Shown here: in pieces, positions 1,380 through 13,369 of the stretch | Numbering within the stretch: the stretch's first letter is position 1 | How the letters are laid out: every line of letters starts with the position of its first letter | Assembly (NCBI GenBank): GCA_903932505.1 | Contig: CAIZGN010000659.1 | Coordinates: forward strand, 1-35,078 | Direction of reading: 5' to 3' | Length of the DNA: 35,078 bases | Source of the DNA: Candidatus Hydrogenedentota bacterium | GTDB lineage: Bacteria; Hydrogenedentota; Hydrogenedentia; Hydrogenedentales; CAIZGN01 | Translations under genes and position numbers: made by a program | Notes under the pieces: model-generated | The model's input: the letters and a program-made list of their open reading frames with translations, nothing else | Told to the model about the DNA's origin: nothing | Databases searched by the model: none

Positions 1380-4300
1380 CTACTTGCAGCAACGGGCCTC
1401 ACGGGTCAGCTTCCGGACGGAAATCGCGCCCACGGGACAAATGCGGATACAGTTTCCACAACGAATGCAATTGTCGCTGTTTATCCAAATGTAAGTACTT
1501 TTCTCGGGCTCGGATTTGTCTTCTTCCTTGCAGCCCGTGGGGAATCCGTAGTCATCCCGTTCGAGGGTGGAAATACGGCGTATGCAGTCGCGCGGTGACA
1601 CGCGAATGCACCAGTCGCAGTGAATGCACTTGTCTTGGTCGATTTCGAATTTGTGGCTGCACAGGTAACACCGCCACGCGTGTTCCTGGGTATGCGCATC
1701 ATCGAAACCCATTTCGACCTCCCGGTCGCAGTCCCGGTCGCAGGCCGGGACGCTGGGCATCACCGGGGGATAAATCAGGTCGTGGTCGCGGCTGCGGTCT
1801 GTGGGTTGGGCTGTTTCTATGGCCACCCCGTAAAGACGGCGCGGTTCGCCCATGAGCCAGGCGTCAATGGCATCCGCCGCCGCTTTTCCGCTCGCCACTG
1901 CGCCAATGACATTCCCGCTTCCCGAGGCGAAATCCCCGGCCACAAAGATCTTCGCGCGGTTGGTAGCGGCTTCGTCCTCGCACAGCTCAATGGCCCCGCC
2001 GAGGATGGCCTGTTCCCGGGTTTGTCCAATTGCCAGAATGAGCGTGTCGCAAGGAACCTCAAACGCACTGTCGTCTATTGGAATGAACCTGGGTTTTCCG
2101 CTGCCGTCCGGTGTGCCGAGCAGATTGCGCTGGAAACAAAGGGCTTGCAGGGTTTCCCCATCACAACGTCCGGAAATCGGGGTCACCAGCGTTTCAATAC
2201 GGATGTTTTCTTCATGCAATTCTCGGAACTCGTCCGCCGTTGCGGACATCTGTGCTTCACCGCGACGGTACATGATGGTCACTGTCGCCTCGGGATTCAG
2301 ACGGCGTGCAGCACGGGCGCAGTCGATGGCGGTGAATCCCCCGCCAATGATGACAATATGCCCGCCCACGGGGAAGGGTTTTCGATCGTTGAACCGTTTC
2401 ATGAAGTGCAGCCCCTCGCATACGGCACTCTCAGGAACGCCTTCAAGCGTGAGGGTGATGGGGCGATTCGCACCCACCGTCAGCAACACCGCATCGTAGT
2501 TCTTCTCGAACTCCTGCACACGGGCATAGTCCACATGTTCTCCGCTCCGGATATCCAGTCCCTGCCCGACAATGGCTACGATATCGGATTCGATGGCGGA
2601 TGCGGGCAAACGGAATCCCGGAATGGCGCGGATTTGTCCGCCCAGCGCCGACTCCCGCTCGAACAGCGTCACCGCATGGCCGTAGCGGCGCAGCTCGCGC
2701 GCTGCGGCAAGGCCCGAGGGCCCACCGCCCACAATCGCGACTTGTTTTCCGCTGGCGTCAAACCAGGCGGGCAGGGGCCTGCTGGCCACGCGATCGGCTG
2801 AGGAGCGTTTGAGATGGCAAATACCCACCGCGCCCCGGGTGCTCGTCCATTGATATCGACACTGTTCCTCGCAGGGTCGCGTGCAGACGCGACCGAGCAC
2901 ATTGGGGAACACATTGTCCTCCTGATTGACGCGGTGGGCCGCCTCGAAATCGCCCTGCGCAATATGCCGGATGTAGGTGGGCACACGTGTTTTCGCCGGG
3001 CAGGCCGTTTGGCAGGGGATATCGCGCGCAAGGGTCTTGCGGTCGAGTGGCTCCACGCCCCAGCCTTCGCTCACCGAAGTCTCCAGTGGATTCGGTGCCT
3101 GTTCGTAGTGTATACCCAGCGCCTCGATGGCTGCCCGGTATTTGCCCATTCCTTCCCGGCGCACCTGCGTGGCGAGGGCTTCGGTGGGTTTGTTTGCGAG
3201 GAAGGTGTCGAGAATGGCGCGGGTTGCCCGCAGCACATCGTCAAACTTCAAAAAGTCAGCCACCGGCTCGCCCAAGTGCGCTTCATCGCCACCCAAGGTG
3301 ATCCGGTACCCTTCGACCGATCCCTGAGCTTCTCGCACCCGCAGCCCCCGGAATCCGATATCCGCCACGTGGTACTGTCCGCAGGAATTGGGGCAACCGG
3401 AGATGTTGATAGTCGCCAGGGTGCGGATCGACTGATACCGGTCCTCATGGACGATTGACTGCAAGGCGTCGAAGAGGTCGTGTGTCCGTGTGACCGCCAG
3501 CGGGCAATACGTCGTGCCCACGCAGGACACCACATCGGTGAGCCCGGAGAAATCCTCCGTATCGAAGCCCAGCGCTTCAATTTCCTTCTTGAGTGCGGGT
3601 AGGCGGTCGGGCCGCACTCCGTGAATCTCAAGATTCTGTCGGTTGGTGCTGTACAGGTGTTTGTCGCCAAAAATCTCGGTGAGTTCCGCGATTCGCAGCA
3701 AGGCGGCCCCGCTCAATTCGCCTTTCTTGACCCTAATGCGCTGGATGGCCCCGCCATCCGTGCCCAAGGGGTTGATTTCCCGCAGCGGACGATCGGGCAC
3801 CGGGGTGCCGACTTCTTCAAAAGGCTCCGTGACGAATTGGCTGCGATCCACGCCTGCTTGGTCGAGAATTTCCTCCAGCAAGCGGCGGCATTCGGCAATG
3901 CCCTTGTGGTGCACCACAAACTTCAGCCGAGCGAACATCCGGACAAAGCGGTCGCCGTGGTCGCGAAAGAGAATGCCGATGGCATGGCACAGCGTCGCAA
4001 TGGAATCGGTCGGGACGAAGGTATACAGCGGTTGGGCGACAAAGGCCTGCCAACCCAAGCCGCCACCGATATTGACCTGAAAACCGGTGACTTCGCTGCC
4101 ATCGGCGAGGCGCCGACGAACGGCTATCACCCCCACGCAATTGATGTGCGGTTGTCCGCATCCACCCGGACATCCCGAAAAGGTGATTTTGTATTTGCGG
4201 GGGAGATTGTCCAAATCACGACTGGCCGTGAGTGCAGCCGCCACCTCCTGCGCATACGGCAGGACATCCAACCGACGATGCGGACAAATGGAGGCCCAGG

Positions 4301-4700
4301 GACAGGCTGCCACATTGCGGGTGACGTCGCCGCAGCCGTGGAAGGTGCTCATGCCCGCTGCCTGAATATCTCGAAGGAAGGGGGCGAGGTCCCCCAGCTT
4401 AAGGAAGTGGAATTGCGCTGCCTGACGGGTGGTAAAGGCGATAAGCCCCTGCGCGTACTCCTCGGAAATGCGGGCAAGCGTCCGCGCCTGCACCGAGGTG
4501 ATTTTCCCGCCGGGAATGACGACCCTCGCCATGTGGGTTCCGGGCTGGCGAGAACCGTAGATGCCGTACCACTTGGAAATGGCACCCTCTTCCCGGGTCA
4601 TACCACCTTTTCGGGCAATTTCGTCGTAGTCCAGAATGAGTCCAGACTCTTTAATAATTTCCTCGTCACTTCGCAATACTTTATCTAGACTACGCTGCAT
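1380..4700 (-). CDS. Sulfite/nitrite reductase - GltD-like flavoprotein - ferredoxin fusion
   Basis: This is a 1106-aa single-chain redox enzyme. Residues about 30-270 and 300-510 are the two ferredoxin-like/siroheme halves of a sulfite or nitrite reductase. The second half has the usual cluster-siroheme ligands (Cys393-x5-Cys399 and Cys436-x3-Cys440); unusually, the first half has the same set (Cys133-x5-Cys139, Cys177-x3-Cys181). Residues about 555-635 form the GltD N-terminal Fe-S region (Cys563, 567, 606, 610, 614). An FAD motif (VGGGPSGLAAARE, about 656-668) and an NADPH motif (IGGGFTAIDCARAARR, about 785-800) follow, with the closing FAD motif near 920-940. The C-terminus has two ferredoxin motifs (Cys1025-1028-1031 with Ser1035, and Cys1078-1081-1084-1088). 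Electrons probably run NAD(P)H to FAD to Fe-S to siroheme. No transmembrane segment is seen, so it is cytoplasmic. Sulfite versus nitrite is undecided. Confidence 0.85.
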   Translation of the reverse strand: MQRSLDKVLRSDEEIIKESGLILDYDEIARKGGMTREEGAISKWYGIYGSRQPGTHMARVVIPGGKITSVQARTLARISEEYAQGLIAFTTRQAAQFHFLKLGDLAPFLRDIQAAGMSTFHGCGDVTRNVAACPWASICPHRRLDVLPYAQEVAAALTASRDLDNLPRKYKITFSGCPGGCGQPHINCVGVIAVRRRLADGSEVTGFQVNIGGGLGWQAFVAQPLYTFVPTDSIATLCHAIGILFRDHGDRFVRMFARLKFVVHHKGIAECRRLLEEILDQAGVDRSQFVTEPFEEVGTPVPDRPLREINPLGTDGGAIQRIRVKKGELSGAALLRIAELTEIFGDKHLYSTNRQNLEIHGVRPDRLPALKKEIEALGFDTEDFSGLTDVVSCVGTTYCPLAVTRTHDLFDALQSIVHEDRYQSIRTLATINISGCPNSCGQYHVADIGFRGLRVREAQGSVEGYRITLGGDEAHLGEPVADFLKFDDVLRATRAILDTFLANKPTEALATQVRREGMGKYRAAIEALGIHYEQAPNPLETSVSEGWGVEPLDRKTLARDIPCQTACPAKTRVPTYIRHIAQGDFEAAHRVNQEDNVFPNVLGRVCTRPCEEQCRYQWTSTRGAVGICHLKRSSADRVASRPLPAWFDASGKQVAIVGGGPSGLAAARELRRYGHAVTLFERESALGGQIRAIPGFRLPASAIESDIVAIVGQGLDIRSGEHVDYARVQEFEKNYDAVLLTVGANRPITLTLEGVPESAVCEGLHFMKRFNDRKPFPVGGHIVIIGGGFTAIDCARAARRLNPEATVTIMYRRGEAQMSATADEFRELHEENIRIETLVTPISGRCDGETLQALCFQRNLLGTPDGSGKPRFIPIDDSAFEVPCDTLILAIGQTREQAILGGAIELCEDEAATNRAKIFVAGDFASGSGNVIGAVASGKAAADAIDAWLMGEPRRLYGVAIETAQPTDRSRDHDLIYPPVMPSVPACDRDCDREVEMGFDDAHTQEHAWRCYLCSHKFEIDQDKCIHCDWCIRVSPRDCIRRISTLERDDYGFPTGCKEEDKSEPEKSTYIWINSDNCIRCGNCIRICPVGAISVRKLTREARCCK

Positions 4701-4735: not shown

Positions 4736-7700
4736 TCAGGCTTTTTCTTCATCGTTGCTTAACATTTCATGAACCTTGGCGGCCATAGTGTTCATGGAGA
4801 AGGGCTTCTGAATAAAGTGGACGCCAGAATCCAAAACACCATGACGGGCGATCACGTCAGCCGTATACCCGGACATGAAAAGGCGCTTCATCATCGGGAA
4901 AAGGGAAAGCAGGTGCTTCGCCAGATCCCGCCCGTTCATCTCCGGAAGAATGACGTCCGTCATCAGCAGGTCAACGTTTCCGACACATTCCTCCGCCAGT
5001 TGGATAGCCTCCCGGGGTGTGGCGGCCGCGAGAACAGTGTAGCCCTGCGCCTCCAAAGACAACGCCGCAAGGCGGAGGATGGCGGGCTCGTCTTCCACCA
5101 GCAAGATGGTCTCCAAGCCACCCCGCGCGGGTTCTTCCGGGTTTTCTGCGGGGGCGTGCTCGAGCATCCCGATGTGTCGCGGCAAGTATATGGTAAAGGT
5201 AGTCCCTTGGTCTGGTTGACTGTCCACGTTCAGAAAACCGTTGTTCTGCTTTACTGCGCCATAGACCGTGGCCAGGCCAAGTCCTGTGCCCTTGCCCAGT
5301 CCCTTCGTCGTGAAGAAGGGCTCGAAAACATGAAGCAGGGTGTCCTTATTCATGCCGCATCCATTATCGCTCACGGAAATGTGTACATAATCCCCGGGAA
5401 CAGCCCCCCTGTGGCTGGCGCAATAGGTGCTGTCAAGCGTGCTATTGCGTGTTTCAATGGTGATCTTTCCCACACCGGCAATAGCGTCCCGCGCGTTTAC
5501 ACATAGGTTCGCCAGAATCTGATCGATCTGTGACGGGTCGACCCGTACCGGCCAGAGGTTTCGGCCCGGTAGCCAAGCAAAATCAATATTCTCGCCGATG
5601 AGACGCCGCAGCATGTTGAGCATGCCTTCCAGGGCCTCATTCAGATCCAGAACCTTTGGTGCGATGGTTTGCTTGCGCGCAAAGGCCAGTAGCTGACGGG
5701 TAATGTCGGCGGACCGTTCACCGGCCCGGATGATTTCCAAGAGGTCGGCGTGCAGGGGTTGCGCAGGTTCCACGCGGCTGAGGGCCGTTTCCGCATGCCC
5801 GAGAATTACCATGAGCATGTTGTTAAAGTCATGCGCGACCCCGCCCGCGAGTCGCCCCACGGACTCCATCTTCTGGGCATGCTGGAGCTGGGCCTCTAAA
5901 TGCGCCCGTTCCTCTTCTGCCCGGGCACGGGTGGTAATGTCTTGGGCAATCTCCACTACCTGGATGATGTGGCCATTGGGATCCAGGATGGGCGACGTTG
6001 TCACGATGACCGTTCGTCCGGGACCCGCCAAGGTGGTGACACCAATGCGCTCACTAGATACAACTTTCCCAGTATCAAAGGTGACTCTTGCCGGGCAGCC
6101 GGGACAGATTTCCGCTTTCCCTTCAAACACCTCGAAACAATTGCGGCCCTTGGTGCCTTCCAAAGGACCGAACCACTGCCCGTAAAGGTCGTTGTACCAG
6201 GCCACCGTGAAATCCGGGTTGATCAGGCACATGCCAATGCTGGAATTCTGGGCGATCGTGTTGAGGATATCCTTGATTTGCAGGGCGTCTTCAGCCTCTT
6301 TCTGGCGGGTGATGTCACTGAGAATACCGAGGGCACCGTTAAACGTCCCATCGGTCTCAAACAGGGGGGTGGTGGCAAGACGGGTCAGTATCTTGCGACC
6401 GTTCTTGTGGACGAAGAGAAACGTGTGCGATTCCTGAACACCGGTTTCACGCCGCTTTTCGAGTTCTTTGGCGCGGGCCACCCAGTCCGGATCGCCGAAT
6501 TCGTACCAACTTCGCCCAATCATTTCCTCGCGGGAATAGCCGAGCATGTCGGTGATGGCGGGATTTACATAGATCGTGTTGAAATCGCGATCGAGCAACC
6601 AGAACCCATCGGACGCGGACTCCACGAGTACCGAGTAGATTTCGCGCTCTCCGACTTTGAGCTTGAGGGCGCGAAGTTCCTCTTCGGCACGCTTGTGTTC
6701 CGTGATATCCAGCGCGGTGCTGGCTAGGTATTTCGGGATGCCGTTTTCATCCTGCACCAAATTACCGGTGGACATCATGGGGAAGGTATGGCCGTCCCGA
6801 TGGAGATGCCAGACCTCTTGGGGTCGCATGTATCCAGTACTCAATATTTGCTGAAGCAAACGCTCCACATGCGGGAATTGTTCTTCAGTGTGCAGGTTCT
6901 TGATCGATTTCCCGATGAGTTCCTCGGGCTTATACCCGTGTGCATTCGAAAAACAGGAATTTGCATAGGTGAGTCCACCGTCCAGCGTGGAAATCACGGC
7001 GCCAAAGCTCGCGGTGTCAAAGATGGTCTTGAATTGACGAAGCTCGTCTTCGGCCTTTTTGCGCAGGGTGATATCCGTGATCATCGCGAAGCCACCCTGG
7101 AACTGTCCCGTCTCGCTCATCAGCGGAGATGCCGAAGTGATCGTCCATACGGGCTGCCCATCCTTCTTCCTGTAACGGCGCTCGTAAACTTCGCTTTCCC
7201 CACGCATGCGCTGTTCAATTTGTTGGCTTTGGTGTTCAACGTCTTCATCGAACAAGAAAAAGGCAACCGGTTTTCCCAGCATCTCCTCCTGGGTATAGCC
7301 AAACATTTCGGTCAATCGCGTATTCACGAAAGTGGTGGCGAAGTTTTTGTCGGCGATCCAGATTCCCTCCTTGGATGTCTCGATCAACTGACTGTACTTT
7401 TCCTCGCTTTTTTTCAAGGCGTACTGCGCGACCTTGATGTCGGTTACATCGGTGTGCCAGACCAAGGCGCTGCCCTTCCTGCCCTGAAGGGGATGCGCAT
7501 GAAGGACGAACCAACTTTTTCTGCCGTCGGGAGCGTGGCAGGGATATTCCAGGCTGAAAAAGGGCAGCTCACCCCTTTGCACGGCGCGAATACCCTCAAA
7601 AGTTTCACGGGCCGACGTGGTGTCGCCCCAGCTGGGATCATACTCTACAAAGTAGTTGGCACCGACACCCCACGCATCCTCGGTTTCGGGTTTATGACCC

Positions 7701-9865
7701 TGGGCATAGGCACGCCACGCCATATTGACATCGAGTATGGTTCCGTCTTCATCAATGACCGCGAGGTGCGCGTCCGTGGAATTGAAGACCCGCTGATTGA
7801 AATCCGCCTGCGCGGTCAGCGTCTCGTGGGCCAACTTGCTCTCGGTGACGTCCACACAGCTGCCGATGTAGCCGATAAAGTTACTGGCACCGTCAAAACG
7901 CGGCACACCGTTGTCTCGAACCCAGCGATACTCTCCGTTCGCCCGGCGCAAGCGGTACTCCATGAGGAATTCCCGCCGCATATCGAAGTGGCTATTGTAG
8001 ACATCAACGCAGCACCGCAAATCGTCCGGATGTACACCCTCAGTCCAACCCGAGCCCATTTCCTGCAAGAGGGTTCTTCCTGTGAATTCAAGCCATACCC
8101 GGTTGAAGTAGGTGCAACCCCTATCGGTTCCGGACATCCAGATGAGTACGGGGACGGTATCCGCCAAGTGCCGAAACCGCCGCTCGCTTTCCCGAACGGC
8201 TTCTTCCGCTAGCTTCTGGTTCGTGATGTCGTGCATGCAGAGCAGGAGGCTGGGCGCATCCGGCATTTCTATGCGCGCTGTTGAGGCCAGAATCACCAGA
8301 TCCCGTGGTTCTCCGTCACGAATCCAGGTGGCTTGGTGCTCAATATTCTGATGCCGGGTTCCTGTTGCAAGGGAATCTTCGAGGGATAAACGCAGTCGGC
8401 AATCGCCGCAGTGTCTGCTGAATCCACAGCCCCGGGGATCCTCCATGGCATTGATGCAACCAAAAATGCCGCAGGCGCGACCACCCACGAACTCACCTTC
8501 CTCAATCCCGGTGAACTCCGTGAAAGCGGGGTTGGCATGCAGCACCGTGCGATCACCGGTCATGATGCACATCATCGTGGGGGTGCTGTCGTAGATGGCC
8601 TTGATTTCCGCGCTATTGCGGGCGAGGGCTTCCTCCGCCTCTTTACTTTGGGTGATGTCGCGGCAAATGACATAGGTCTTTGCGTGGTTGCCTTCATTAT
8701 CGTAGAGAAATTTCGCGAGATCCTCGCGCCAGATGTAATGCCCGGCTTTATGTTGAACACGGTAGGTATACTGCAGACCGGGTTGCTTGGTTTCGATGGC
8801 GGCAAAGATGGAACGGAACAGGGGCTCCCGGTCTTCCGGGTGAATCATCGCGTAGATGCTCTCGCTGTCCCTGTCCACCTCTTCCTCCAAGGAATAGCCC
8901 AGTTGCCGGGCATAGGAGGGGGAAGCGTATAGAATTTTGTAGTCCGATGATATAACCAGAATGCCGTCGGAGGTGTTCTCGGCGATGAGCCGGAATTTTT
9001 CCTCGCTCTCGCGCAATTCCTGGGTTCGAATGTCGAGTTGGTCCTGTACACGGAGCAGGGTGCGCTCGCTTCGCGCTCGGTCGCACAGCTCAAGCAGATA
9101 ATCAGGCTCAAAAGGTTTGCGCAGGTAGGCGGCCGCACCTCGTTTCATCCAGTCCAGAGCGAGTTCCGGCTGCGGATTACTTGTCGTCATAATGCATACA
9201 CAATCGGGCTGCACGGCGCGCAAGGTGTCCAGCAAGCCGTCGCCCTTGCCGTCGGGAAGGTCGTAGTCCAGCACCGCGATTTCGTAGGCGGCCTTGGAAA
9301 TGGCGGCCTCTCCATCGCGGATGGTCTCGACCGTTTCAACAGTGCAATGGTGATTTGCAAATGATCGGCGCAGGATGGCGGCCAGACTGGCGTCCGTCTC
9401 CGCGAGCAGCACTCGAAGGGGATGTTGAAGCTGTCGTCCTTCGATAATGGCCCGAACCTGCTCCACAAACTGCCGTCCATCCACCGGGGAGGGTATGAAG
9501 GCCTCCGCCCCGAGGTCGACCGCGATTCGGCCGGTCTCATCGCCCGCAAAAATGGCGGAAACCACCAGGATGGGGATCGCGTTCAGGGCTTCGTATTCCT
9601 GGGAGCGCAGCAAACGGCAGAAACGCCAACCATCGATCCCCGGCATGTAGAGGTCGGTGACTACCAGATCGGGCAAAGACCGGGTGGGGTCATCCCCTTG
9701 GCGAATAGCCGCGCCCATTTCGGCGAGAGCGGCCTCCGCGCTCGTGAAACCGTGTGCGGACAGCCCGGCTTTGTGCACCAACTTGCACAGAATTCCCAGC
9801 TGGACGGGGTCATCGTTGACCACTACAGCGAAAGTTTCACTCTGATGTAGGGGTACAACGTCCAT
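4736..9865 (-). CDS. Hybrid sensor histidine kinase, REC-REC-PAS(x8)-HisKA-HATPase-REC
   Basis: This 1709-aa soluble kinase has no membrane segment. REC1 spans about 10-143 with phosphoacceptor Asp71, but the conserved Lys before Pro is replaced (Ser126). REC2 spans about 150-265 with Asp200 and Lys250. Eight PAS domains follow, starting near 290, 415, 560, 690, 820, 940, 1075 and 1200. PAS2 contains five cysteines (465, 470, 480, 486, 489) and PAS8 a CPGCP motif (Cys1254, Cys1257). The H-box is GGVAHDFNN with His1345; the N-box has Asn1457; the G1 and G2 boxes are DNGCGM (from Asp1500) and GKGTGLGL (1524-1531). The C-terminal REC has Asp1637 and Lys1687. The domain set indicates an intracellular sensor feeding a phosphorelay; the output partner is not in the window. 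It begins 43 bp after the sugar-transferase stop and ends 35 bp before the reductase start. Confidence 0.93.
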   Translation of the reverse strand: MDVVPLHQSETFAVVVNDDPVQLGILCKLVHKAGLSAHGFTSAEAALAEMGAAIRQGDDPTRSLPDLVVTDLYMPGIDGWRFCRLLRSQEYEALNAIPILVVSAIFAGDETGRIAVDLGAEAFIPSPVDGRQFVEQVRAIIEGRQLQHPLRVLLAETDASLAAILRRSFANHHCTVETVETIRDGEAAISKAAYEIAVLDYDLPDGKGDGLLDTLRAVQPDCVCIMTTSNPQPELALDWMKRGAAAYLRKPFEPDYLLELCDRARSERTLLRVQDQLDIRTQELRESEEKFRLIAENTSDGILVISSDYKILYASPSYARQLGYSLEEEVDRDSESIYAMIHPEDREPLFRSIFAAIETKQPGLQYTYRVQHKAGHYIWREDLAKFLYDNEGNHAKTYVICRDITQSKEAEEALARNSAEIKAIYDSTPTMMCIMTGDRTVLHANPAFTEFTGIEEGEFVGGRACGIFGCINAMEDPRGCGFSRHCGDCRLRLSLEDSLATGTRHQNIEHQATWIRDGEPRDLVILASTARIEMPDAPSLLLCMHDITNQKLAEEAVRESERRFRHLADTVPVLIWMSGTDRGCTYFNRVWLEFTGRTLLQEMGSGWTEGVHPDDLRCCVDVYNSHFDMRREFLMEYRLRRANGEYRWVRDNGVPRFDGASNFIGYIGSCVDVTESKLAHETLTAQADFNQRVFNSTDAHLAVIDEDGTILDVNMAWRAYAQGHKPETEDAWGVGANYFVEYDPSWGDTTSARETFEGIRAVQRGELPFFSLEYPCHAPDGRKSWFVLHAHPLQGRKGSALVWHTDVTDIKVAQYALKKSEEKYSQLIETSKEGIWIADKNFATTFVNTRLTEMFGYTQEEMLGKPVAFFLFDEDVEHQSQQIEQRMRGESEVYERRYRKKDGQPVWTITSASPLMSETGQFQGGFAMITDITLRKKAEDELRQFKTIFDTASFGAVISTLDGGLTYANSCFSNAHGYKPEELIGKSIKNLHTEEQFPHVERLLQQILSTGYMRPQEVWHLHRDGHTFPMMSTGNLVQDENGIPKYLASTALDITEHKRAEEELRALKLKVGEREIYSVLVESASDGFWLLDRDFNTIYVNPAITDMLGYSREEMIGRSWYEFGDPDWVARAKELEKRRETGVQESHTFLFVHKNGRKILTRLATTPLFETDGTFNGALGILSDITRQKEAEDALQIKDILNTIAQNSSIGMCLINPDFTVAWYNDLYGQWFGPLEGTKGRNCFEVFEGKAEICPGCPARVTFDTGKVVSSERIGVTTLAGPGRTVIVTTSPILDPNGHIIQVVEIAQDITTRARAEEERAHLEAQLQHAQKMESVGRLAGGVAHDFNNMLMVILGHAETALSRVEPAQPLHADLLEIIRAGERSADITRQLLAFARKQTIAPKVLDLNEALEGMLNMLRRLIGENIDFAWLPGRNLWPVRVDPSQIDQILANLCVNARDAIAGVGKITIETRNSTLDSTYCASHRGAVPGDYVHISVSDNGCGMNKDTLLHVFEPFFTTKGLGKGTGLGLATVYGAVKQNNGFLNVDSQPDQGTTFTIYLPRHIGMLEHAPAENPEEPARGGLETILLVEDEPAILRLAALSLEAQGYTVLAAATPREAIQLAEECVGNVDLLMTDVILPEMNGRDLAKHLLSLFPMMKRLFMSGYTADVIARHGVLDSGVHFIQKPFSMNTMAAKVHEMLSNDEEKA

Positions 9866-9908: not shown

Positions 9909-12512
9909 CTATGCCGCACCCCGGCCGTAGAAGACTTCCTTGAAAGTCTTGAACAGTATAATGAAGTCCTGCGAGAGAGTCCAAGTATCAATGTACTGAA
10001 GATCCAGACCCACCCACTCCTCAAAGCCGACATCACTACGGCCACTGACCTGCCAGAGGCCCGTCATGCCGGGCCGGACACTCAGTCGCCGACGTTGTGC
10101 CCAGGTATACCGCACCACCTCCGAGTACACCGGTGGGCGGGGCCCCACGAGGCTCATCTGACCGGTCCAAACATTGATGAGCTGCGGGAATTCATCAAGA
10201 CTGTGCTTGCGCATGAATCCGCCAATGCGCGTCAGGCGGGGATCATTCCGAATTTTGAAAACCGGGCCGTCGGCCTCATTCAGTGCTTCCAATTCCTTTT
10301 TCAGCGCCTCTGCGTTCGGCACCATGGTGCGGAACTTGATCATCTTGAAGCGACGCTGGTTTTGGCCGATGCGCTCCTGGAGGAAGAACATGGGGCCTTT
10401 GGAGTCCAGTTTGATGAGGATGCCCACGGCGAAAAACACCGGAAGCAACGGAATTAGCAGCAGGGTGGACAAGGTGAGATCGACCATGCGCTTGATCGCC
10501 AGCCAGAACTGGGTCTCAGGAACCGCCGAAAGCGAAATAACAGGGAGATCGTCCACATACATGAGTTGATTGCTGGCCACCTTCAGTCGAAACAGATCCG
10601 CCGGGACGGCAAGCGAAATCCCGTGCTGCTCGCAGGTATGAACCATGCCCTGGATGGCCTCATAAAAGGAACGCAGCGGAAGACCCACGAAGACTTCGTG
10701 CAGCGACTCCCGGGTGATGCACGTTTGCAGCTGTTCGATGCCGCCCAACCGGGGGATGCCAAGCGCTTCAAACTGCGGACAGCGTTCCGCCTCGTCCTCG
10801 AGAATACCGACGATGGAATAAGCGTGTCGCCGCGAGTGCAGCAGCGTTTCCGCGAGCTGACGGGTGCGATCGTTGGCTCCCGCCAGAATCAGGCGTCGCT
10901 GGAAGTAGCCCCGACGTTGGAGCAGGGCGATTGCGCTGCGGAACAGCACACGTGCCCCAATAAGGGCCAACGGGGTGTACAGGCAGAACATGAGAAGGAA
11001 ATGTCGGTTGATGGGGGTCTGGGAAAACAAAGCCACAGTCACTGTGCCGTAGACCAGGGCACTTCCCACCGCTTTGGTTATTGCGAGCAAATAATCGTTC
11101 AGATTACCCGGTCGCCACACCCGGAAGACTCGCTGGTCGATAGCCGCTACATACCAAAGGGCCAAAAAGAGCAGGAGGTACGGTGCATGACGCCACAGAT
11201 GGGCCTCGTAGGTGCTGTTCCACGCAAGCGAGTCATACGCAGCCCAAACAAAGGTCAAGGATATGGCCAGTCCGTCCAGAAGTGCCATCAGGATGCGAAT
11301 TTTCGGGATATGGAAGCGTGATTGGGGTGCCTGCGACCCTTCTCCAGCCCCGGCAGGAGCGGGGATAGGCGTTTGCTCGTTTTGGGATCGCTTTCCCCAA
11401 GGAATCCAAGCCTCCAGGGCCTCAGGCAGCTCGTGCAGCGAATAGCGTCGAAGCACGGCCCCGAGCGGCGTGACCGGCGGGGGGGCTTTTTCATCACTTG
11501 CACCGTCCGCAGTCCCGTGTCCCGGGCAGAAGGCCCGCGTCCTAAAGCGCAGTCTGCCGCGAGTCTCCGCAGGCCATTCGCGCACAAACACCGGACCCGG
11601 TGATGTCAGTTTGACCAGCAGCGCCGTGAGCAGAAGAACGGGGGAGAGGAAGACCACCAACATGGTGGCGGCCAGCCACTCTGAAATTTTCTGCAGGTCG
11701 AAGTGTGCTTGAATGTTCCGCCGGGATAAGGTGAGCAGGGGAATGTCCTCGAGCCGGAACACTTCGCACCGGGAAGTCCCTGCGAGAAACAAGTCGCCAA
11801 CCAGACGCACCGAAACGCCAACGCCTTCGCATAGGTAAGCAATGTCTTGAACCTTCTCATACTGGGAACGCAGCGGCAGGGTGACGTAGACCACGTCCAC
11901 CACCTCGTCGGTAAGGAGCCGCTCCAGTTCCTGGATGGGGCCAAGATAGGGAACCCCGTAGCCCTGCAGTTCGTCCTGCCGCTCGGGCTCATCCTCAAGA
12001 ATGCCGGATATGTGGAATCCATACTGTTCATGGGACAGGATCACCCGAAGGAGGGCCTGCGTGCGCTCGTTGGCTCCCACGATCACGACTTGGCGGTAAT
12101 TGTAGCCGCGTCCCCGCAAACCCCAAAGACTTAAGCGAGCCGCCAGACGGAACAGCAAGAGGAATGCGATGGAAAAGAGGCCGAAGAGGCTCGCGAAAGC
12201 GCGATCAATGCCAGCAGGGCTCAGCAGCGCAAACATGAAGACCGAAAGCAAGACCGCTGTAAACGCGGCGCGCGCCACATCGGTCAACTGGGGAACCAGC
12301 GCGTCACTGCGTCGCGAAAGATAAAGGCGCTGGTCAACGGCATGCAGATACCAAGAGGCGAGGAGGATGATAAACCAAGAGAGGCGTCCAGACAACGGCT
12401 CATCCGGCAACGTCAACCAAGAGGCAAGCAGATAGGCGATCCCAATACACCCGGCTTCAATGATCACAGGCACCAATGCGAGAACGGCATTCTGCCGACG
12501 AGCGTACGGCAT
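9909..12512 (-). CDS. Polyprenyl-phosphate glycosylphosphotransferase, internally duplicated
   Basis: At 867 aa this is almost twice the usual 450-500 aa. Each half repeats the PHPT plan: several N-terminal membrane helices (about 10-130 and 405-530), a Rossmann-like domain (VVIVGANERTQ at 142 and LILAGANDRTR at 541), another helix, then the sugar-phosphate transferase module. The C-terminal module is intact: FKMIKFRTM (722-730), the catalytic pair Asp773-Glu774 in SLDEFPQL, SLVGPRP (787-793) and RPGMTGLWQVSGRSD (813-827). The N-terminal module is reduced: the equivalent of SLDE is SLHE (His360), and SLVGPRP and RPGMTGLWQ are missing. The working half should transfer a hexose-1-phosphate to undecaprenyl phosphate at the inner membrane, starting exopolysaccharide or glycan synthesis. 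The start has GGAG eight bases upstream and a sigma70-like promoter at 12614-12642. Confidence 0.9.
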   Translation of the reverse strand: MPYARRQNAVLALVPVIIEAGCIGIAYLLASWLTLPDEPLSGRLSWFIILLASWYLHAVDQRLYLSRRSDALVPQLTDVARAAFTAVLLSVFMFALLSPAGIDRAFASLFGLFSIAFLLLFRLAARLSLWGLRGRGYNYRQVVIVGANERTQALLRVILSHEQYGFHISGILEDEPERQDELQGYGVPYLGPIQELERLLTDEVVDVVYVTLPLRSQYEKVQDIAYLCEGVGVSVRLVGDLFLAGTSRCEVFRLEDIPLLTLSRRNIQAHFDLQKISEWLAATMLVVFLSPVLLLTALLVKLTSPGPVFVREWPAETRGRLRFRTRAFCPGHGTADGASDEKAPPPVTPLGAVLRRYSLHELPEALEAWIPWGKRSQNEQTPIPAPAGAGEGSQAPQSRFHIPKIRILMALLDGLAISLTFVWAAYDSLAWNSTYEAHLWRHAPYLLLFLALWYVAAIDQRVFRVWRPGNLNDYLLAITKAVGSALVYGTVTVALFSQTPINRHFLLMFCLYTPLALIGARVLFRSAIALLQRRGYFQRRLILAGANDRTRQLAETLLHSRRHAYSIVGILEDEAERCPQFEALGIPRLGGIEQLQTCITRESLHEVFVGLPLRSFYEAIQGMVHTCEQHGISLAVPADLFRLKVASNQLMYVDDLPVISLSAVPETQFWLAIKRMVDLTLSTLLLIPLLPVFFAVGILIKLDSKGPMFFLQERIGQNQRRFKMIKFRTMVPNAEALKKELEALNEADGPVFKIRNDPRLTRIGGFMRKHSLDEFPQLINVWTGQMSLVGPRPPVYSEVVRYTWAQRRRLSVRPGMTGLWQVSGRSDVGFEEWVGLDLQYIDTWTLSQDFIILFKTFKEVFYGRGAA

Positions 12513-12687: not shown

Positions 12688-12724
12688 AGACCCCTCGAAG
12701 CCGGAAGACCGGCTCGAGGGGTCT
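12688..12724 (-). terminator. Strong hairpin behind the Gly-Thr peptide genes
   Basis: The arms GACCCCTCGA and GCCGG pair with CCGGC and TCGAGGGGTC, with a single bulged base and an AAGA/TCTT loop, giving about 15 base pairs. It lies about 22 bases past the stop of the second peptide gene and before the promoter of the next gene, which is where a terminator is expected. The run of U that would make it a classic intrinsic terminator is poor on the minus strand, so it could instead be an mRNA 3' stabiliser or an attenuator. Confidence 0.6.
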
Positions 12725-12745: not shown

Positions 12746-12976
12746 TTAGGCGCCGGTGCCCGTGCCCGTTCCCGATCCCGTGCCCGTGTTGGTTCCGGTA
12801 CTGGTTCCCGAGCCTGAGTTGGAACCATCAAAGACTCCTGCTTTCCACGGGGACTGCCGCCCGGCAAGCAGGATGCGATCGATAATCATGGTGGTTGATT
12901 CCAACTTGATCTGAAAGTTGGAGGTGGCCTTCTGGGGACTGCGACTCACCGCGTATATATGCCGTTGGATCTTCAT
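12746..12976 (-). CDS. Small Gly-Thr-repeat peptide, second of a tandem pair
   Basis: This 76-aa product is not a family I recognise. It has a basic start (MKIQRHIYAVSRSPQK), a middle with a short hydrophobic stretch (TTMIIDRILLAG, about 28-39), then FDGSN, and ends in about 24 residues of alternating Gly with Thr or Ser, including GTSTGTN. The repeat codons vary at the third base (GGC, GGA; ACC, ACG), as expected if the peptide sequence is kept rather than the DNA being a simple slippage tract. AAGGA lies eight bases before the ATG. It begins 20 bp after the first peptide's stop. No signal peptide, Cys or known RiPP core is visible. The role is unknown; a Thr/Ser-rich tail beside a sugar-transferase gene could be a glycosylation target, but that is speculation. 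Confidence 0.65.
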   Translation of the reverse strand: MKIQRHIYAVSRSPQKATSNFQIKLESTTMIIDRILLAGRQSPWKAGVFDGSNSGSGTSTGTNTGTGSGTGTGTGA

Positions 12977-12996
12977 TCGTTTATTCCTTGTTTATG

Positions 12997-13203
12997 TCAA
13001 GAGGTCTTGCGGAAGACCCAAACAACCATTTGATCCGTAAGAGCGATCAGGAAGTTCTTCAGGTAGGCAAAGTTTGAACCACTGAAGGTACCACCGGAAC
13101 CCGAGTTGGTCCCCGTGCTCGTCCCTGTACCCGTGCCCGTGCCCGTACCGGTGCCCGACGAGGCCAACAAGGGTCTCCTGCTAATCAGCTGGTGATGTTT
13201 CAT
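12997..13203 (-). CDS. Small Gly-Thr-repeat peptide, first of a tandem pair
   Basis: This 68-aa product is of unknown family. It has a basic leader (MKHHQLISRRPLLASS), then about ten Gly-Thr/Ser dipeptides including GTSTGTN, then FSGSN, and a C-terminal hydrophobic segment ending LTDQMVVWVFRKTS. The elements match those of the next gene, but their order differs: here the repeat precedes the hydrophobic segment, there it follows. The frame is open for 27 more codons upstream, but the chosen ATG has AGAGGAG ten bases ahead (13214-13220), while the upstream ATG has no ribosome binding site. Repeat codons use GGC, GGT, GGG and ACC, ACG, ACA, so synonymous positions have diverged. A TTGACA-N17-TATGAA promoter lies about 140 bases upstream. 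Confidence 0.65.
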   Translation of the reverse strand: MKHHQLISRRPLLASSGTGTGTGTGTGTSTGTNSGSGGTFSGSNFAYLKNFLIALTDQMVVWVFRKTS

Positions 13204-13213
13204 GTACGCTTTT

Positions 13214-13220
13214 CTCCTCT
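13214..13220 (-). promoter_or_regulatory. Ribosome binding site fixing the start of the first peptide
   Basis: AGAGGAG on the minus strand lies ten bases before the ATG at 13203. It favours the 68-aa form over a 95-aa form starting at 13284, which has no Shine-Dalgarno match. Confidence 0.6.
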
Positions 13221-13340: not shown

Positions 13341-13369
13341 TTCATACCATGCAAGCGAAAATTTGTCAA
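13341..13369 (-). promoter_or_regulatory. Sigma70-like promoter for the peptide pair
   Basis: On the minus strand, TTGACA (13369-13364) and TATGAA (13346-13341) are separated by exactly 17 bases. The -35 is consensus and the -10 is 4 of 6. The site lies past the sugar-kinase stop at 13437 in an AT-rich stretch that differs from its surroundings. The predicted leader to the ATG at 13203 is about 130 bases, long enough for leader-level control, though I see no clear riboswitch. Confidence 0.65.

Follow-up and report, generated by a model that had tools for sequence, protein, structure and literature searches.

The window (the whole 35,078-nt stretch of contig CAIZGN010000659.1 from a Candidatus Hydrogenedentota bacterium) is part of a 5.86-Mb draft genome and carries two small ORFs, orfA and orfB, arranged in tandem on the minus strand with 20 bp between the orfA stop and the orfB start. 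Two adjacent ORFs of 68 and 76 codons with this spacing had been reported in a preliminary description of the same DNA, and their positions were borne out. The features of the locus, in the direction of transcription, are as follows.

13341–13369, minus strand: promoter of the pair, TTGACA (13369–13364), a 17-nt spacer ending in CATGG, and TATGAA (13346–13341)
13214–13218, minus strand: AGGAG, orfA ribosome binding site, seen in the sequence; similar purine-rich sites stand before the orfA of relatives
12997–13203, minus strand: orfA, 68 aa, ATG at 13203; matched by profile A2 in its own genome with E 5.2e-16
13159–13203, minus strand: orfA residues 1–15, basic N-terminal tag MKHHQLISRRPLLAS (tag profile A7)
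13078–13158, minus strand: orfA residues 16–42, Gly-Thr-rich hinge insertion, missing from relatives
13003–13074, minus strand: orfA residues 44–67, predicted single helix NFAYLKNFLIALTDQMVVWVFRKT (AlphaFold2 and conserved column pattern)
12985–12989, minus strand: AAGGA, orfB ribosome binding site, seen in the sequence; a purine-rich site lies in the short gap of relatives
12746–12976, minus strand: orfB, 76 aa; matched by profile A1 in its own genome with E 9.4e-28
12923–12976, minus strand: orfB residues 1–18, N-terminal tag MKIQRHIYAVSRSPQKAT, from profile alignment with the orfA tag
12842–12922, minus strand: orfB residues 19–45, conserved core SNFQIKLESTTMIIDRILLAGRQSPWK (column conservation in 41 loci)
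12749–12841, minus strand: orfB residues 46–76, Gly-Thr/Ser tail, variable and predicted to be disordered (block pLDDT 42–51)
12688–12724, minus strand: hairpin 3' of orfB, probable transcription terminator (fold z-score −5.2)

Judged from the sequence, orfA and orfB are transcribed together, as a single unit, from a housekeeping-type promoter of their own. The TTGACA-N17 promoter claimed earlier was confirmed about 140 bp upstream of orfA, and a site with no more than two mismatches to TTGACA-N16-18-TATAAT precedes orfA in 33/41 loci as against 2.8 % of dinucleotide-preserving shuffles, the conserved form being TTGACA-N17-TATNAA; in most cases TGG or something similar precedes the second hexamer. 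The ribosome binding sites claimed for both genes are also present. The hairpin said to lie behind the pair stands as a strong fold (−36.9 kcal/mol for an 86-nt stretch), but a clean, canonical U-tract was not found in it and a terminator scan made no call there.

Relatives carry the same pair. The orfA profile matched 59/68 Candidatus Hydrogenedentota genomes and the orfB profile 54/68, and at all 40 of the relatives' loci inspected an intact orfA is followed by an intact orfB after a short gap (typically 17–20 bp, range about 11–40 bp). It had been proposed, from the variation of the repeat codons at the third base, that the peptides are maintained; this variation is present in the Gly-Thr tracts, and pooled pN/pS values within close pairs (0.148, 0.137 and 0.305 for orfA, the orfB core and the orfB tail, respectively) indicate strong purifying selection, with every part constrained as protein and the tail under the loosest constraint. 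When 84,980 species, each represented by one genome, were scanned with only the orfB core as query, taken from the closer subset of the alignment, 13 relatives were found, all labelled Hydrogenedentota, Hydrogenedentes, Hydrogenedens or 'uncultured bacterium'. A viral origin was set aside as no relative was confirmed in IMG/VR, and a plasmid origin as tblastn of orfB against plasmid records gave no match. As far as these sequence searches reach, the superfamily to which the two proteins belong is specific to the uncultured phylum Hydrogenedentota, and orfA and orfB, a real and conserved pair, belong to a family of tiny proteins that had no name before. That such small proteins are kept, with a conserved promoter, across nearly the whole phylum points to a likely basic role in this lineage.

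The preliminary description knew of no family with this layout, and database searches agree. orfB had no match in Pfam, where orfA gave only a sub-threshold match to a holin (15.1 bits, where the cut-off is 30), neither protein matched NCBIfam, and in the PDB orfB had no match and orfA only one with an E value of about 0.8. There were 0 Rfam covariance-model matches in the window at the gathering score. The family thus matches nothing in the libraries searched (Pfam, NCBIfam, Rfam and PDB); nor was a description of such proteins found in open-access papers, the part of the literature covered.

The Gly-Thr tracts, which tandem-repeat tools resolve into imperfect 6, 12 and 18-nt arrays, had been taken as a feature common to the pair, and this did not survive comparison with relatives. 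The orfA tract is an insertion in a hinge, between residue 15 and SNF, and the orfB tract is a variable C-terminal tail that follows PWK; hence the two are not homologous. The usual length of orfA in relatives is about 42 aa (for example MKHHKCITRKPQLSQVSNFQAWKDFLVALTDQIIEFIFIKTR), with 41–50 aa at 39/40 loci; hinge inserts elsewhere are only 0–8 aa, and a single divergent orfA, 75 aa long, is extended by a C-terminal tail in place of a hinge insert. Every relative has an orfB tail, and its make-up varies (TGTDTGT, GEGEGE, GGTGG and DDDDNN are examples; mean length 28 aa, with T at 28 %, G at 23 % and D at 10 %). An F-(S/D)-G-S-N element, also thought to be shared, proved to be coincidental: the alignment with relatives rules out its homology, and pairs the SNF of orfA (residues 43–45) with the SNF of orfB (residues 19–21). 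Gly-Thr linkers are not peculiar to the two proteins either, because the one other tract of such length in the window's genome is in an unrelated 844-aa protein. On these alignments, the Gly-Thr repeats are a variable spacer rather than a defining feature, and a case in which a striking low-complexity repeat can distract from the conserved part. The 844-aa protein (locus L235, G000:C104) combines a zinc-protease-like motif, HETGHLLGLDH, with a long Gly-Gly-Thr/Gly-Thr linker.

The homologous part of orfA and orfB is the tag, (K/R)H-x3-I/V-S/T-R/K-x-P-xx-A-Q, together with SNFQxK, and a profile–profile comparison over these segments identified the two proteins as paralogues (probability 97.6, E 2.7e-12). 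Across 41 loci, M1, K2, H3 and P11 of orfA are conserved at 98–100 %, and in orfB W44 of the core and H6 of the tag are invariant, with K24, R40, Q41 and K45 at 93–98 %. Weaker matches to the orfA profile are further tiny ORFs, often in tandem, in which MKHLRxISRxPxxAQ is followed by differing hydrophobic segments. A profile of the tag, 17 positions long, matched 66/68 genomes, with several candidates per genome and up to 12 matches each at a threshold of E ≤ 1, figures from which the number of tagged genes can be taken only approximately because the weak matches of so short a profile include chance ones. Among those listed, nearly all strong matches fall in open frames of 42–165 aa, and this placement serves as a control because chance matches would also land in long frames. 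Each member has a basic N-terminal tag of about 15–18 residues and a polar tail that is likewise short, and most also have a short hydrophobic segment, predicted to be helical in orfA and orfB; orfA and orfB are both short ORFs that carry the tag. We regard the existence of a family of tagged tiny proteins as all but certain.

Tagged ORFs form tandem arrays of up to six. The window's genome has at least seven members, namely orfA, orfB, one at G000:C641 and four at G000:C208, and a simple DNA pattern for the tag marks only three places in that genome, one of them probably by chance. The four lie in an array at positions 3246–4029 of locus L195, and the single ORF occupies positions 2184–2348 of locus L146. 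The latter is of a tagged type ending in KFYQKTP or similar (also L145 and L148), which adjoins genes that by eye we take to encode proteins like type II secretion/type IV pilus membrane proteins and parvulins. Another type, of 39 aa (MKHIKPIT.RADAFTNF.NAVWRAWQDFRYEKKNE), is very well conserved and is the last ORF of arrays before GNAT genes (L197, L202, L212, L217 and similar loci).

AlphaFold2 predicts a single helix in orfA (residues 44–67, block pLDDT 77–93; 67 as the mean of the model), with the tag and the Gly-Thr insert extended. The orfB model (mean pLDDT 58) has a helix of modest confidence (residues 19–37), a short helix in the tag and a disordered tail. On average, the orfA tag carries a charge of +3.6 and the orfB tail one of −3.6. 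The hydrophobic moments of the orfA and orfB helices were not significant against shuffles (median p 0.13 and 0.36, respectively), and the claim of an amphipathic helix was dropped for both. By eye, no signal peptide is apparent in either protein.

Two kinds of locus recur. At the first, orfAB often lies between a gene for an ABC-F ATPase (a cluster of 18 ORFs in 17 loci) and a convergent gene for a Ser/Thr kinase. At the second, arrays of tagged ORFs stand upstream of two genes for GNAT acetyltransferases; in the window's genome, a GNAT gene follows the array of four at a distance of about 0.9 kb. GNAT genes thus accompany one type of array, and none was recognised beside orfAB. The array-linked GNAT has a PF13302 domain, and the PDB entries that it matches are diamine/spermidine acetyltransferases and a protein of the RimJ/RimL family; RimJ/RimL-type and spermidine N-acetyltransferases are its nearest relatives, at a weak level of similarity (E 1e-9 to 1e-3). 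The larger GNAT was found in 57/68 genomes. Five genomes, all from family f3 (G011, G017, G023, G028 and G032), have no match to orfA or orfB and tag matches at chance level only, and the GNAT tested is missing from all five; in a sister genome, G002, a tagged ORF and the GNAT are both present. The probability that all five would fall by chance among the 11 genomes that lack the GNAT is about 4e-5 (C(11,5)/C(68,5)), a value that assumes independent genomes where the five are one lineage. The Ser/Thr kinase, used as a control, is kept in four of the five, so that these genomes are not simply incomplete.

The best explanation that we can offer, and a tentative one, is that the tag-sharing single-helix peptides are handled by one common pathway, our reserve being due mostly to the functional half, which we infer. 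The tag would be a recognition handle for one cytoplasmic partner, for which the GNAT pair beside one array type would be the best candidate, and this partner would find all tagged peptides and modify or deliver them, after which the helices, as the working part, may act at a membrane, against one another or within an assembly. The Gly-Thr tracts would be hydrophilic spacers without fixed structure that slippage has probably lengthened while the frame was preserved, and in the species of the window the orfA spacer would have grown inside the hinge. The tag and the co-absence of GNAT and peptides turn the observation of an orphan gene pair into a testable pathway. Several points weigh against this explanation. 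The co-absence is a lead and not proof, because it concerns essentially one lineage and because the GNAT gene lies inside one of the array loci and could vanish with a deletion of that locus. The orfAB pair itself is without a recognised GNAT neighbour, and the start of the orfB tag three residues after the Met speaks against a simple acetylation of the N terminus. The orfA and orfB helices show no significant amphipathicity, so that binding to a membrane surface stays conjectural, the orfB model is of low confidence, and part of the weak tag matches are due to chance. More ambitiously, the peptides may constitute a phylum-specific system, with several tagged single-helix peptides per genome at separate loci that would be recognised by the tag and acylated by the dedicated GNAT pair, hence conserved ribosomal (lipo)peptides of a new class that would serve the envelope or membranes of the cell itself and not warfare; we consider this possible but doubtful.

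Improbable to a similar degree is the alternative that the tagged ORFs encode precursors of ribosomal modified peptides or bacteriocins, in which the tag would be cleaved off as a leader from a core made up of the helix and tail, and the product would be released by an exporter. The conserved N-terminal segment, the divergent C-terminal parts and the tandem small ORFs would suit such precursors, as would the GNAT genes beside one array type, given that ribosomal peptides acylated by GNAT enzymes, the selidamides, are known (PMC9505594). However, the orfA and orfB cores are highly conserved and not hypervariable, and the sampled neighbours included no recognisable lanthionine synthetase or enzyme of that sort. 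The Peptidase_C39 transporter domain is present in 27/68 genomes of the phylum and was not found in the remaining 41, which include that of the window (0 matches); with none found there, export by a C39 transporter is unlikely. The selidamides of proteusin type resemble the present system in that a conserved N-terminal segment recurs in several small genes and GNAT acyltransferases stand beside one array type, though none was recognised beside orfAB. They differ in having a long nitrile-hydratase-like leader (PMC9505594) where the tag has only about 15–18 residues, and here neither a lanthionine synthetase nor a peptide arginase nor a C39 transporter was recognised and the cores are conserved across a phylum. 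In the precursors of double-glycine-leader bacteriocins, which go with C39 peptidase transporters, a hydrophobic peptide is likewise preceded by a short basic stretch at the N terminus and the small genes are in tandem, but the boundary of the tag here has no Gly-Gly site and, as noted, the window's genome yielded no Peptidase_C39.

An unlikely possibility is that the peptides are substrates of the convergent Ser/Thr kinase, which would phosphorylate the Thr-rich tail. A gene with a Pkinase domain adjoins or lies near orfB in 16/41 loci, and the tails are 28 % Thr. Nevertheless, the retention of the kinase in four of the five genomes without peptides shows that it is not a dedicated partner, some tails (GEGEGE) have no Thr, and the window's genome has the kinase gene on a separate contig (C56). 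The recurrent order is ABC-F ATPase, orfA, orfB, convergent Ser/Thr kinase, RsfS, gatB and gatA (L062, L070, L072, L076 and others), where the names gatB and gatA are our presumptive assignments by eye; with RsfS and gatB/gatA as neighbours, the position of the kinase is plausibly ancestral synteny.

We give slightly less credit still to membrane-active toxins, whether like those of type I toxin–antitoxin systems or like phenol-soluble modulins. The short hydrophobic helices, the tandem arrays and the strong promoter speak for them, the core-genome distribution under purifying selection speaks against them, and there is no signal of amphipathicity in orfA or orfB; an antisense RNA, looked for through Rfam alone, had no match in the window. 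Phenol-soluble modulins and leaderless bacteriocins are, in general character rather than by a sequence match, also very short proteins with a hydrophobic helix, tandem genes and no evident signal peptide, from which the present proteins differ in their shared tag, in the orfA and orfB helices without significant amphipathicity and in their phylum-wide conservation.

It was suggested in the preliminary description that the Thr/Ser tract is glycosylated, with the adjacent sugar-transferase gene as the link, and the corresponding view, that these are exported or surface peptides glycosylated via the neighbouring pathway, is very unlikely to be correct. The tracts are rich in Thr and a polyprenyl glycosylphosphotransferase gene begins 234 bp downstream of orfB in the window, where a gene for an FGGY sugar kinase lies upstream of the pair. 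This glycosylphosphotransferase is common in Hydrogenedentota genomes, yet it is not among the three nearest genes on either side in the 40 related loci, and hence accompanies orfAB at one locus of 41; as a neighbour that is not conserved, it was rejected as a partner. Polyprenyl glycosylphosphotransferases make lipid-linked sugars and are not known to glycosylate proteins, the orfA tract is missing in relatives, and, with no signal peptide apparent by eye, nothing speaks positively for glycosylation of an exported Thr tract. Least credible of all, in spite of the small size of the ORFs and their position upstream of other genes, is that they are regulatory leader ORFs or a structured RNA and not functional proteins, since pN/pS of 0.14–0.15 indicates coding constraint, the genes downstream vary between genomes, the pair has its own hairpin behind it and no Rfam family was matched.

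The sugar transferase of the window (867 aa, 9909–12512, minus strand) resembles two polyprenyl glycosylphosphotransferase units joined within a single ORF; several relatives encode the two halves in separate genes that adjoin each other, while others have the fused form. Two further long ORFs lie on the minus strand of the window. By eye, we take the one at 4736–9865 (1709 aa) to be a multi-sensor hybrid histidine kinase flanked at either end by receiver domains, and the one at 1380–4700 (1106 aa) is presumably a sulfite/nitrite-reductase-like protein joined to a GltD-like flavoprotein, with ferredoxin-type cysteine motifs.
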